A stretch of 64,000 nt of DNA, taken from the NCBI RefSeq assembly GCF_031127875.1, contig NZ_JARXIA010000020.1, positions 1 through 64,000 on the forward strand, in the 5' to 3' direction. Shown here piece by piece: positions 51,936 through 58,349 of the stretch. The position numbers were made by a program, and so were the translations under genes. The stretch comes from Pelagicoccus sp. SDUM812005. GTDB lineage: Bacteria > Verrucomicrobiota > Verrucomicrobiia > Opitutales > Opitutaceae. The notes under the pieces were generated by a model that was given only the letters and a program-made list of their open reading frames with translations, was not told where the DNA came from and did not search any database. Each line of letters opens with the position of its first letter. Position 1 is the stretch's first letter.

Positions 51936-53567
51936 ATGGCAGCCAAAGTGGAAAACAGTAAGGCAAAGAAGTATATTTTCGTGACGGGCGGTGTCGTTTC
52001 GTCCCTAGGCAAGGGTTTGACGGCGGCGTCACTGGGCGCGCTGCTCGAGGAGCGCGGCTGCACGGTGCGGATCCAGAAGTTCGACCCGTACCTGAACGTG
52101 GATCCAGGCACGATGAATCCGTTCCAGCACGGTGAGGTATACGTCCTCGACGACGGGGCGGAAACCGACCTCGACCTAGGGCACTACGAGCGTTTCACCT
52201 CGGGCAAACTAAGCCAGTTCAACAACCTTACCTCCGGGCAAATCTACGAGTCGGTCATCCAGAAGGAACGTCGCGGCGAGTACCTCGGAAAGACGGTGCA
52301 GGTCATCCCGCACGTGACCAACGAGATCAAGACGCGTATCCGGGCCGCCAGCGAGGACGTCGACATCCTGATCACCGAAATCGGTGGCACCGTGGGCGAT
52401 ATCGAGGGGCTGCCGTTTCTCGAGGCCATGCGTCAATTTGCGTTGGAGGCGGGGCGCGACAACGTGCTTTTCATCCACTGTACGCTGTTGCCGTTCTTGG
52501 CGGCGGCCGGAGAGCTCAAGACGAAGCCGACTCAGCAGAGCGTGGCCAAGATGCGCGAAATCGGTATCCAGCCAGACATTTTGGTTTGCCGTACGGAGCA
52601 CCCGATCGATGGCGAGCTGCGCGAGAAGATGAGCCTTTTCTGCAACGTGCCGGTCAAGGCGGTTATCGAGGAGATCGATGTGGACGACTCGATCTACGAG
52701 CTGCCGGTGATGCTCCGCCGCGAGCACCTCGACGATCTGGTGGTAGACTTTCTCAAGCTGGACGCTCCTCAGCCAAAGCAGAGCATTTGGACGGACATCG
52801 TGCGTCGCATCAAGTCGCCGTCGAAACGGGTGACCATCGGCGTCGTCGGCAAGTATATCGAGCTGCAGGATGCCTACAAGTCGGTTTACGAATCGATCAC
52901 CCACGCCGGTATCGCCAACGACTGCGCCGTAACGATCAAGCGTATCGATGCGGAGTCGCTCGAAACGGCGGAAGGTCTTGAGTCGCTCAAGAGCTTGCAC
53001 GGGATTTTGGTCCCGGGTGGGTTTGGTGACCGTGGCACGGAAGGCAAGATCGCCGCGGTGCGCTACGCTCGCGAAAACAACGTTCCTTACTTCGGCCTTT
53101 GCCTTGGCCTGCAGATCGCTGTTATCGAGTACGCTCGCAACGTGCTGGGTCTCAAGGACGCGAACAGCTTGGAGTTTGACGAGAAGACCGAGCATCCGGT
53201 CATCACTTTGATGGAAGAGCAGAAGCAGGTCGTCGACAAGGGCGGCTCCATGCGACTCGGCTCCTACGAGTGCAAGGTGAAGAAGGGGACGCATGCTTTC
53301 GCTGCTTACGGGCAGGAGATCATTCGCGAACGCCATCGCCACCGCTACGAGGTAAACAACGCCTTCGTGGAGGATCTGGAGAAGGCGGGACTCGTCGTCA
53401 GCGGCGTTAATCCCAAGCGCAATCTCGTCGAAATGGTTGAGTTGAAGGAACATCCATGGTTCCTCGCGGTTCAATCCCATCCTGAATTCCTTTCCAAGCC
53501 GAACAAAGCCCATCCACTTTTCCAAGCGTTTGTGGAAGCGGCGATCAATCGGGACGAAAACCGTTAG
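51936..53567 (+). CDS. pyrG: CTP synthase
   Basis: A 543-residue enzyme. Residues 1-270 are the amidoligase domain ([26 protein letters not shown], the nucleotide loop). Residues about 290-540 are the glutaminase domain: [10 protein letters not shown] holds the nucleophile Cys, and SHPEF the His and Glu. It converts UTP to CTP using glutamine. Start ATG 51936 (MAAKVENSK). It is followed after 48 bases by the lipoyl-KAS III fusion. Confidence 0.96.
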
Positions 53568-53615: not shown

Positions 53616-55205
53616 ATGAGCTTTCAAATCGACGTGCCAATCCCTTCCATGGGGGCTACTGTCAACGAAATGACCTTGATCGATCTCGAAGTCGAAGCAG
53701 GGCAGGAAATCGCAAAAGGCGAAAAGTTAGCGGAATTGGAGAGCGACAAGTCGGTCTTCGACTTCGAATCTCCCTGTGATGGCGTGATCAAGCAGATCCA
53801 CTGCCGGGCGGGGGATATTCTCGAGGTGGGGGCTCCCTTTGTCCGTATTGAAACGGAGGATACGTCTGTTTCCCACTTGACGGTCGAGGCCGATGCGGCT
53901 CCGCAGGGCGCGGCTGTCGAGAAGCCGGTCGCTGAAGCGGCGGCTCCCGTCGCGGTCATGGCGGAGGTGGCGAGCTCTCCCGCTTCGGCTCCCGCTGCTA
54001 CGCCAGCTGTGGCGAGTTCTGTGGCCAAGGCGAATGGGATTCGCTGGACGCCGCGAGCCAAGAAGCTGGCGAGCGAGCGCGGTCTCGATCCGGACAGCAT
54101 CACCGACATCGTAGGCACGGGTCCAGGCGGACGCGTGACGGGCGACGACTTGGAGGCATACGTTCCGGCTGGGGCAGCGGCTCCACAGGCTGCGGCTGCG
54201 AGCTCAGCGGTGGATGGATCGCTGCAGACGGCGTGCGTTGCGGGCATCGGGTACGCGGTCCCGAAGAACATGCGTTCCAACGCCGATATCCTAAAGCAGT
54301 TTCCCGGCAAGACCGAGGAGGAGATCGTCAAGGTCACGGGCATCCAGCAGCGTTACGTCATTTCCGAAGGCGAGTCGGCGACCAGTTTGGCGAGCAAGGC
54401 CACGCGTCACGCTCTCAAGATGGCCGGGCTGGAGGTGTCGGATATCGACGCGGTTGTGGTGGCGACCTTGCTGCCGGACCATCCAGTACCGGGCGCGGCT
54501 AGCATTTTGGCCAAGGAGTTGGGAGTTGAGCATGCCCTGGCGTTCGACTTGAACGCGGCTTGTTCGGGCTGGCTCTACGCGCTCGAGGTAGGACGCAGCT
54601 TGATCTACGGCGGTACGGCTAAGAACATCTTGGTCGTGACGGCGGAAATCCTGTCGCGAATCACCAACCCCAAGGATCACGAAACCGCATTCTTGTTTGG
54701 CGACGGAGCCGGAGCGGCGATCCTGACTCCCGGAGAGGGAGGGCATCGCTTGCACCGTTTGGAGTTGAGCGGCGACGCTCGTTTCACGGACGCGATTTCC
54801 CGTACGGGCGGTGGCGCCTTGAAGCCGATGCCGTCACCGGGCGAAGACTTGGATTCCTTCTACCTGAAGATGGATGGCGGGGTGGTTTTCAAGCGGGCCG
54901 TGCTGGCGTTTTCGAACATTATCGAGAGCGCTTTAAAGCGTCACGGGTTGAAGCCGGAAGACGTCTCTTGGATCGTGCCGCACCAGGCCAATGCCCGGAT
55001 TTTGCGGGCGGTGAGCAAGCGAGTGGGCATTCCCTACGAGAAGTTCGTGGTTACGATCAACAAGTACGGCAATACCTCGGCTGCCTCCGTTTCCATGGCT
55101 CTTGGATGGGCCGCGGAAGAGGAAATCTTCGAGGAGGGCGACAAGATTATCTTTTGCTCGGTCGGCGCGGGATTCACCTTCGCTGGCGGCTTGATGACCT
55201 GGTAG
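53616..55205 (+). CDS. Lipoyl domain + E3-binding domain + KAS III (FabH-like) fusion
   Basis: A 529-residue protein with three modules. Residues 1-78: a lipoyl domain, with the lipoate attachment Lys45 in ELESDKSVF. Residues 80-140: an alanine/proline linker. Residues 141-182: a peripheral-subunit (E3) binding domain (TPRAKKLASERGLD... GPGGRVTGDDLEAY). Residues about 195-529: a complete KAS III with Cys316 in NAACSGW, His456 in VPHQANARIL and Asn486 in KYGNTSAASV. In a normal 2-oxoacid dehydrogenase E2 the last module is an acyltransferase with HxxxDG; here a condensing enzyme takes its place. The simplest reading is that acyl groups made by an E1 and carried on lipoate are passed to KAS III to prime fatty acid synthesis, for example of branched chains. 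E1 and E3 genes are not in the window. ATG 53616. Confidence 0.92.
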   Translation: MSFQIDVPIPSMGATVNEMTLIDLEVEAGQEIAKGEKLAELESDKSVFDFESPCDGVIKQIHCRAGDILEVGAPFVRIETEDTSVSHLTVEADAAPQGAAVEKPVAEAAAPVAVMAEVASSPASAPAATPAVASSVAKANGIRWTPRAKKLASERGLDPDSITDIVGTGPGGRVTGDDLEAYVPAGAAAPQAAAASSAVDGSLQTACVAGIGYAVPKNMRSNADILKQFPGKTEEEIVKVTGIQQRYVISEGESATSLASKATRHALKMAGLEVSDIDAVVVATLLPDHPVPGAASILAKELGVEHALAFDLNAACSGWLYALEVGRSLIYGGTAKNILVVTAEILSRITNPKDHETAFLFGDGAGAAILTPGEGGHRLHRLELSGDARFTDAISRTGGGALKPMPSPGEDLDSFYLKMDGGVVFKRAVLAFSNIIESALKRHGLKPEDVSWIVPHQANARILRAVSKRVGIPYEKFVVTINKYGNTSAASVSMALGWAAEEEIFEEGDKIIFCSVGAGFTFAGGLMTW

Positions 55206-56680: not shown

Positions 56681-57442
56681 TCAGCTTCCAGAGAGCTCGT
56701 AGTGGATGACGCTCAAAGCGTGGATGGCTGCGGTTTCGCTGCGCATGACGTGCGGTCCGAGCCATAGGGAGCGGAATCCTTTGTCGGCCGCGAGCTGGTA
56801 TTCTTCTGGGGTAAAGTCGCCTTCGGGGCCGATCAGGCAGATGACGGACTGGGGAAGCTGATCGGGGTTTTCCGTTCGAAGGTCCGCAAGGTGTCGTTTG
56901 AGGGATTTTGCCGCAGGCTCGAGGCTTGCGATCAGCATGAGGTCGAACGTTTGGCTTAATTCCAGCAGGCGGGAGAAGTCTGACACCGGTTCGATCTCCA
57001 CGAGGAAGGGATTGCCGCTTTGCTTGGCTCCTTCCAGTGCGGCGGCGGTCCATTTCGCGTTTTTTGCGTTTTGCTTTTTGGCGTCGACCTTGGCTTCGCA
57101 CCGCTGCGAGGCGACGGGGAAGATCCGCTGAGCTCCGATCTCGGAAGCCTTGCGGATAATGCTTTCCATAAGCTTCCCTTTGGGCAGGGCTTGGGCGAGG
57201 GCGATGTTCTGTGCGGGCGGCTGGGCTTGCTTGATTTCCAGGATCTCGAGAACGGCCTTTCGCTTGTTCGCTTCGAGCAGGCGGGCTTGGGATTCGCAGC
57301 CGATTCCGTTGAAGAGCGAGACGAGGTCGCCGACGCGAGCCCGATTGGCTGCGACGAGGTGGTTGGATTCCTCGGGGCTGAGCGTCACCTGTTCACCCAC
57401 CTGAGAGGGCGGATGCTCGTAGTAGCTGCGAAAGTCTGGCAT
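56681..57442 (-). CDS. rsmE: 16S rRNA (uracil-1498-N3)-methyltransferase
   Basis: A 253-residue SPOUT methyltransferase. The amino domain is PUA-like (SPEESNHLVAANRARVGD). The knot domain has LPKGKLMESIIRKASEIGAQRIFPV, SQRCEAK, CLIGPEGDFTPEEY and LGPHVMRSETAAIHAL. It methylates N3 of U1498 in 16S rRNA. ATG 57442. Two hairpin terminators on the same strand lie just upstream, so the gene has its own promoter in the 50 bases before the start. Confidence 0.94.
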   Translation of the reverse strand: MPDFRSYYEHPPSQVGEQVTLSPEESNHLVAANRARVGDLVSLFNGIGCESQARLLEANKRKAVLEILEIKQAQPPAQNIALAQALPKGKLMESIIRKASEIGAQRIFPVASQRCEAKVDAKKQNAKNAKWTAAALEGAKQSGNPFLVEIEPVSDFSRLLELSQTFDLMLIASLEPAAKSLKRHLADLRTENPDQLPQSVICLIGPEGDFTPEEYQLAADKGFRSLWLGPHVMRSETAAIHALSVIHYELSGS

Positions 57443-58009: not shown

Positions 58010-58094
58010 GCCCAGGTGGCGGAATTGGTAGACGCGGCGGATTCAAAATCCGCTTTCTCCGGAAGTGTGGGTTCGAGTCCCACCCTGGGTACCA
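58010..58094 (+). tRNA. tRNA-Leu (anticodon CAA)
   Basis: Cloverleaf with acceptor GCCCAGG/CCTGGGT (one G-U), D arm GCGGAATTGGTAGACGC, anticodon stem GCGGA/TCCGC with loop TTCAAAA (anticodon CAA, reads UUG), a long variable arm TTTCTCCGGAAGT, T arm GTGGG-TTCGAGT-CCCAC, discriminator A and an encoded CCA. The long variable arm fits a class II tRNA-Leu. Confidence 0.96.
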
Positions 58095-58349
58095 TCCTTG
58101 GGAAGTGAGGGGGGGATTGCGAAAGGCGCGATCCGCCGATCGATCGTTCCGGTGGGACGAGAAGCCATCGGGTTCGACGGAGCGCAGCGGAGATGGGCAA
58201 ACCGCAGGTTTGGGGCGCAGCCCTGAGCGAAGCGAATCAATCCCACCCTGGGTACCATCCTTGGGGAGTGAACGTGGGGGATTGCGAAAGGCGCGATCCG
58301 CCGATCGATCGTTCCGGTGGGACGAGAAGCCATCGGGTTCGACGGAGCG
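58078..58349. repeat. Tandem direct repeat that includes the tRNA-Leu 3' end
   Basis: Copy 1 (58078-58184) starts in the T arm of the tRNA (TCCCACCCTGGGTACCATCC) and continues downstream. Copy 2 (58241-58349) repeats the same approx 107 bases almost exactly. The copies are 163-165 bases apart, and both end at GACGGAGCG. Copy 2 therefore carries a tRNA 3' tail with CCA but no complete tRNA. The rest of 58095-58488, up to nadA, holds no supported gene. Confidence 0.85.

Follow-up and report, generated by a model that had tools for sequence, protein, structure and literature searches.

A lipoyl and E3-binding head joined to a ketosynthase III in Opitutaceae: a candidate E2-like protein in which the acyltransferase domain is replaced

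In a 64,000-nucleotide stretch of DNA from Pelagicoccus sp. SDUM812005 (hereafter the window), we found a gene at 53616-55205 on the forward strand that encodes, from ATG to stop, a 529-aa protein carrying in a single chain, from N- to C-terminus, a lipoyl domain, an E3-binding domain and a ketosynthase III (KAS III). The fusion is conserved in Opitutaceae and also in some lineages close to this family. By comparing it with its relatives, we came to regard it as fairly probable that the protein serves as E2-like core in a third 2-oxoacid dehydrogenase complex, the KAS III having taken the place of the CoA acyltransferase so that free acyl-CoA is bypassed. In such a complex, an unlinked fused alpha/beta E1 would decarboxylate a 2-oxo acid, most likely a branched-chain one, and reductively acylate the lipoyl group on Lys45. 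The lipoyl arm would then deliver the acyl group to Cys316 of the KAS III, which would join it to malonyl-ACP to form a branched 3-oxoacyl-ACP, and E3 (dihydrolipoyl dehydrogenase), docked on the E3-binding domain, would reoxidise the arm, so that branched-chain fatty acids would be primed without free acyl-CoA. What we read from the sequences are the domains and their conservation, the fact that E1 and the lipoyl/E3-binding head occur or are missing together, a split form of the locus, and the loss of the CoA site in a KAS III that keeps its triad and ACP side; lipoylation, binding of E1 and E3, the substrate, the transfer and the condensation are steps that we infer.

An earlier reading made from the sequence alone (the sequence-only reading) had seen one chain made up of a lipoyl domain with Lys45, an E3-binding domain and a KAS III, and its coordinates, frame and length agree with ours. 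Pfam matches over the curated cut-offs bear out this layout: Biotin_lipoyl at residues 6-78 (53631-53849; E=4.8e-15), E3_binding at 145-180 (E=2.2e-9; domain taken as residues 144-180, 54045-54155), ACP_syn_III at 310-385 (E=1e-25) and ACP_syn_III_C at 440-529 (E=4.6e-30). The KAS III domain as a whole spans residues 204-529 (54225-55202), and the top structural matches of the predicted model in Foldseek are FabH structures. The order of domains is that of an E2 with its acyltransferase replaced, as had been proposed: a Pfam search of the 529-aa protein did not find the acyltransferase domain PF00198, and the KAS III is in its place. Lys45 (codon at 53748-53750), the expected lipoylation site, lies within ESDKS, which we take to be a lipoyl-type motif, and is kept by every full-length fused protein (30 of 30) and every separate head (20 of 20). 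Biotin-type attachment sites read MKM, and biotin rather than lipoate on Lys45 was ruled out because ESDKS is not of that type. An Ala/Pro-rich linker (residues 83-143, 53862-54044; 74% Ala, Pro, Ser, Thr or Val) runs from the lipoyl to the E3-binding domain and a second one (residues 182-203, 54159-54224) precedes the KAS III, both recognised by composition and low pLDDT, with values below 50 at residues 94-110, 112-140 and 187-203. The predicted structure is of middling confidence (mean pLDDT 68.6), with its modules separate, and carries no information on head-KAS contact or transfer.

The recurrent neighbours of the fusion locus are pyrG, kdsA and rsmE. In the window, pyrG (CTP synthase; 51936-53567, forward strand) is the frequent upstream neighbour and an RsmE-family gene (56681-57442, reverse strand) a frequent flanking one, and neither is thought to be involved. 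Further along lies a tRNA-Leu (caa) gene at 58010-58094, followed by repeats up to 58349, with a copy of 58078-58115 at 58241 (89%) and an exact one of 58111-58184 at 58276.

To follow the architecture across Verrucomicrobiota, a check proposed by the sequence-only reading, we searched 387 genomes across the window's phylum, a set of 38 genomes (its own and relatives), plasmid records and, by an exact-peptide scan, species genomes. A KAS III of the fusion type (E <= 1e-90) was present in 21 of the 387 phylum genomes, all 21 belonging to the window's family (f1), and in 22 genomes of the 38-genome set (E <= 1e-80), including one, G031, from another family of the same order. End-to-end relatives of the 529-aa protein, 57-91% identical, come from 15 other genera. 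The exact-peptide scan, which relies on short exact peptides and could let distant relatives escape, fusions in other phyla among them, returned 19 loci: one unfused Microbacterium KAS III and 18 fusions from Pelagicoccus, strain DG1235, Ereboglobus, strain K14 and MAGs named Opitutaceae, Opitutales, Opitutia or Verrucomicrobia. None of 456 matching plasmid records spans head and KAS III at 80% of the query, and word searches of the open-access literature found nothing on a lipoyl/E3-binding/KAS III fusion. The parts do belong to ordinary families, as they would if an accidental fusion, a frameshift or an assembly error had joined an E2 fragment to fabH, and one MAG copy (L056:8001-9596, forward strand) has an in-frame TAA at the Glu236 equivalent, inside the KAS III, possibly itself a sequencing or assembly error. 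However, because end-to-end relatives occur in other genera and in separate named assemblies (including Pelagicoccus mobilis, strain DG1235 and Ereboglobus), with Lys45 and the catalytic triad invariant, such an accident is improbable to the point of being negligible.

Comparing the locus over the 37 phylum-sample genomes that belong to f1, we found three states. The head is fused to the KAS III in 16 genomes, forms a separate ORF immediately upstream of it in five (and in G024, outside the sample), and stands alone in 14, which have no KAS III of the fusion clade and keep the E1 described below; G053 and G305 have no head. All 14 lone-head and all six split genomes have the head 3' of kdsA, which sits between pyrG and the head in many relatives, and pyrG or kdsA is found in the short examined flanks of 21 of 30 fused loci. 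The lone heads (L165-L178; for example L170:6125-6610, reverse strand) are about 150-200 aa long, contain no catalytic domain and adjoin kdsA, with the E1 unlinked. A full head is present on 30 of 31 fused rows, the last (G021) being cut by a contig end. Seven KAS IIIs that at first appeared headless, with matches starting at residue 122-204, are accounted for by a separate head ORF in six cases and by the contig end of G021 in the other.

Genomes with E1 and head that have no such KAS III imply that the head there needs another acceptor or another use. The simpler history, though not proven, would be a fused or split ancestor that later lost its KAS III. In a tree of the E1 (39 rows, midpoint root, no outgroup), lone-head genomes occupy two positions, of which one has weak support, and G031, a fused genome, stands apart on a long branch. 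Absent from the tree are G282 and G056, for want of a called long ORF; of 54 family genomes seen, 15 are outside it or without E1.

The partner genes that the sequence-only reading would have us locate are not beside the fusion: no E1 or E3 gene was found among the ORFs of window positions 42000-64000 or among the recurrent neighbours, and we therefore sought the partner genome-wide. Three E3-binding proteins are encoded in the window's own genome, namely a PDH-type E2 (442.4 bits on TIGR01349, cut-off 445), the OGDH E2, whose gene adjoins that of dihydrolipoyl dehydrogenase, and the fusion. Besides the PDH and OGDH E1s, this genome has two fused alpha/beta E1s. One, of 719 aa (G000:C74:235149-237305; domains E1_dh, Transket_pyr and Transketolase_C), stands alone, with no E2 gene in the surrounding 16 kb. 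The second, of 641 aa (L099:6387-9586, reverse strand; G000:C85), is next to an E2 in which we detected an acyltransferase domain and no E3-binding domain, and its surroundings look, by eye, like a sugar-biosynthesis cluster.

Relatives of the lone E1 (E <= 1e-100) occur in 56 of the 387 phylum genomes. Those in f1 (35 of 37 genomes) are whole matches 53-83% identical to the E1 of the window's genome, and those in 21 genomes outside f1 are 35-37% identical. The head is also present in 35 of 37 f1 genomes, and the E1 accompanies it in all 35, both being absent from G053 and G305 (Fisher p 0.0015, uncorrected for relatedness). Each of these two genomes has two E3-binding proteins, neither of them a head; since the other four sampled members of the genus of G305 (g34) keep both E1 and head, the two seem to have been lost together in G305. 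A further 17 f1 genomes gave a similar picture, with the E1 in 15 and not in G016 and G017, where no head was found in the part searched, the surroundings of kdsA. Twelve of these 15 carry the complete fusion, and G024 has the split form; in G021 the locus is truncated by the contig end, and G018 (67% complete) has no KAS III match. Outside the family, G031 (96% complete) combines an E1 of 53% identity with the fusion and a single E3-binding protein, and gave no PF00198 match, so that an E2 acyltransferase domain is undetected there. The E1 relatives (35-37%) of G282 and G056 (family f20) adjoin an E2 with an acyltransferase domain, with the caveats that a stop lies inside the G282 E1 match and that the E3-binding match of G056 is under the cut-off. 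Second E1 matches in Pelagicoccus (27-31%) were considered as another E1; the one inspected, in G006, is the PDH operon.

Unlinked as it is, the lone alpha/beta E1 appears to be kept and lost together with the head, and we propose it as the candidate partner. Within 700 bases after the E1 gene, kdsC is found in 52 of 59 regions, corresponding to 33 of 39 genomes (for example L102:6150-8938, forward strand); kdsA by the head and kdsC by the E1 belong to one pathway (KDO), which is no more than suggestive. Against branched-chain and pyruvate E1 structures alike, the beta part of the E1 scores about 200-220 bits, and sequence similarity of this kind does not decide the substrate. The separateness of PDH and OGDH, and a KAS III pocket that looks wide, lead us to assume a branched-chain 2-oxo acid.

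The triad of the KAS III, described as intact in the sequence-only reading, comprises Cys316, the nucleophile (54561-54563; Cys112 in E. coli FabH), His456 (54981-54983; His244) and Asn486 (55071-55073; Asn274), and all 37 fused or split KAS IIIs have it complete. This part of the protein scores 285.8 bits on TIGR00747 (FabH), just under the cut-off of 292.1, and passes the broader NCBIfam model PRK09352 (320.7 bits, cut-off 249). The housekeeping FabH of the same genome reaches 443.7 bits on TIGR00747 and is 38% identical to the fusion's KAS III. In a KAS III tree, all 37 fused or split sequences form one clade (100/100) apart from 38 housekeeping FabHs, and the six split ones group together; very distant paralogues were included, and the deep joins of this tree are unsafe.

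In E. coli FabH, the CoA adenine contacts Thr28 and stacks between Trp32 and Arg151, and the phosphopantetheine is held by Arg36, Asn210 and Asn247, according to the sections of PMC4606726 drawn on here, in which both Asn are numbered one lower. When residues were called from alignment with E. coli FabH, we found that every one of the 38 housekeeping FabHs keeps Thr28, Trp32, Arg36 and Arg151, whereas each of these four residues is missing from all 37 fused or split KAS IIIs; there the positions are mostly Arg/Lys, Glu, Leu/Val and His. The corresponding residues in the window are Lys232 (Thr28), Glu236 (Trp32) and Val240 (Arg36), at 54309-54335, and His355 (Arg151), at 54678-54680. Lys214, Asn247 and Arg249 occur in all 37, and Lys256 in 35 of them; we take Lys214 and Arg249 to be malonyl-ACP docking residues. 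The Phe87 position holds Val in 36 and Ile in one of the 37, presumably a wider acyl pocket. Fused and split KAS IIIs have lost the four CoA-holding residues, as a lipoyl-fed enzyme might. A second, more divergent fusion in G320 (L096:8405-9982, forward strand; G320:C66), 62% identical to that of the window, has Glu, Asp, Leu and Pro at the four positions, and neither pyrG nor kdsA is within the flanks examined.

All four CoA residues are kept in three FabHs of Pseudomonadota plasmids. The same set is also missing in the Microbacterium KAS III and in four KAS III paralogues of these genomes, and Asn210 is kept neither in housekeeping FabHs nor in fused or split KAS IIIs, so the loss could mean that the donor is acyl-ACP or something else. 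On that reading the KAS III, which like some other KAS IIIs is without the CoA site, would accept acyl-ACP or another non-CoA thioester, and the lipoyl head would be a mere tether for E1 and E3 or have a separate task, in line with the 14 of 37 genomes in which a head works without this KAS III. We consider this unlikely, however, given that the KAS III clade was not seen headless (apart from the G021 row cut by the contig end) and that the head is immediately upstream in six of six split genomes.

We attach about as little probability to the idea that the acyl group passes from the lipoyl arm through Cys316 to the phosphopantetheine of ACP, yielding acyl-ACP with no condensation and making the protein a true E2 in which ACP replaces CoA. 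FabH has a side activity of acyl exchange with ACP, and both the E2-like position of the KAS III in the chain and the loss of the CoA site with the basic residues of the ACP side kept (37/37) would suit such a transferase. FabH-type His and Asn serve condensation with malonyl-ACP, but a pure transferase would hardly need both His456 and Asn486, which are kept in every one of the 37. Lower still do we rate an ordinary complex, with the head in a mixed core alongside the PDH or OGDH E2 that makes acyl-CoA and the KAS III using the ester nearby. Two more E2-type acyltransferase proteins are indeed present in most of these genomes, and the lone heads resemble the accessory E3-binding protein X; yet the loss of the CoA-holding residues in all 37 argues against such a complex, as does G031, which has fusion and E1 with the E2 acyltransferase domain undetected.

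Direct transfer from lipoate to the KAS III, the route first put forward by the sequence-only reading, is thus the account that we favour, and the co-occurrence of E1 and head, the split head-KAS III pairs and the loss of the CoA residues support it. Among the observations that count against the mechanism, E1 and fusion are not adjacent, lone-head genomes exist, and Lacunisphaera limnophila presents the difficulty described next.

Branched fatty acids are common in these Verrucomicrobiota. Pelagicoccus mobilis, which has the fusion (L051) and the lone E1 (G003), has aiC15:0, C16:0 and C16:1 as predominant fatty acids (Table 1 of PMC13274419, the part of that source used). From the portions consulted of three other sources, iso-C15:0 makes up 48.6% in Lacunisphaera limnophila IG16b (PMC5303756) and anteiso-C15:0 53% in Congregicoccus, which may be inside or outside f1 (PMC12193912), and iso-C14:0 is a major acid in Coraliomargarita, a member of another family (PMC10288369), so branched chains also occur beyond the range of the fusion. 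Lacunisphaera limnophila (G305) is without the lone E1, the head and the KAS III of the fusion clade, and 14 of the 37 relatives are without this KAS III. The proposed route therefore cannot be the only branched-chain source in the family.

We found that Lacunisphaera limnophila instead has E1, lipoyl and acyltransferase parts in a single chain, and this protein shares 75% identity with its 1,061-aa counterpart in G109. Proteins of this kind, with E1 alpha/beta, lipoyl and acyltransferase parts in about 1,050 aa, are seen at L244:285-3470 and L256:731-3865 (both forward strand). Taking long acyltransferase ORFs (at least 1,033 aa; sequences read for G109 and G305) as this all-in-one protein, we counted 13 among the 37 f1 genomes: both headless ones, nine of 14 with lone heads, two of five split and none of 16 fused. 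The all-in-one protein is likely a CoA route, and the pattern looks as if it and the fusion route replace each other. The thought that its acyltransferase serves the lone heads fails, as it is undetected in five of these 14 genomes, which have no acyltransferase match beyond two full-length E2-type ones.

In the known 2-oxoacid dehydrogenase complexes the product released is acyl-CoA, and it is from acyl-CoA that known FabH enzymes draw their starter. The parts of the system described here are known and their combination is new; if confirmed, the mechanism would be of a categorically new kind. We see an even balance for and against the wider reading, in which a 2-oxoacid dehydrogenase complex ends in a C-C bond and not a CoA thioester, the lipoyl domain is the acyl carrier for a CoA-free ketosynthase, and the head and E1 of lone-head genomes feed a further acceptor. 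Keto-acid oxidation would then prime fatty-acid synthesis within one particle. If true, this would directly link keto-acid oxidation to membrane lipid make-up, mean that a lipoyl domain is able to feed a ketosynthase, and perhaps help to account for the iso and anteiso lipids of these Verrucomicrobiota, with a possible use in producing branched fatty acids without acyl-CoA pools. Cultured bacteria with the system include Opitutus terrae (split form) and Pelagicoccus mobilis (fusion).

Compared with the E2 of PDH, OGDH and BCKDH, the fusion matches in its lipoyl domain, Ala/Pro linker and E3-binding domain and in their order, and co-occurrence gives it a candidate E1 partner; it differs in having a KAS III in place of the 2-oxoacid_dh acyltransferase domain, and for this reason we do not file it as an E2. 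With FabH/KAS III (TIGR00747, PRK09352) it shares the fold, the Cys-His-Asn triad and the ACP-side residues, but it falls under the TIGR00747 cut-off, has lost the CoA-holding residues and bears an added lipoyl/E3-binding head. Such a head is also found in protein X of eukaryotic PDH, and one of the structures matched, 8ohs, is a PDHX. Protein X carries an acyltransferase-like domain, whereas the fusion ends in a KAS III and the lone heads are without any core. Closest in expected outcome is the route proposed for Akkermansia in the parts of PMC9328018 cited here, where a BCKDH feeds a separate FabH. Branched 2-oxo acids would give branched fatty acids in both cases, but in the system described here the head and KAS III form one chain or are neighbours, with no acyltransferase domain.
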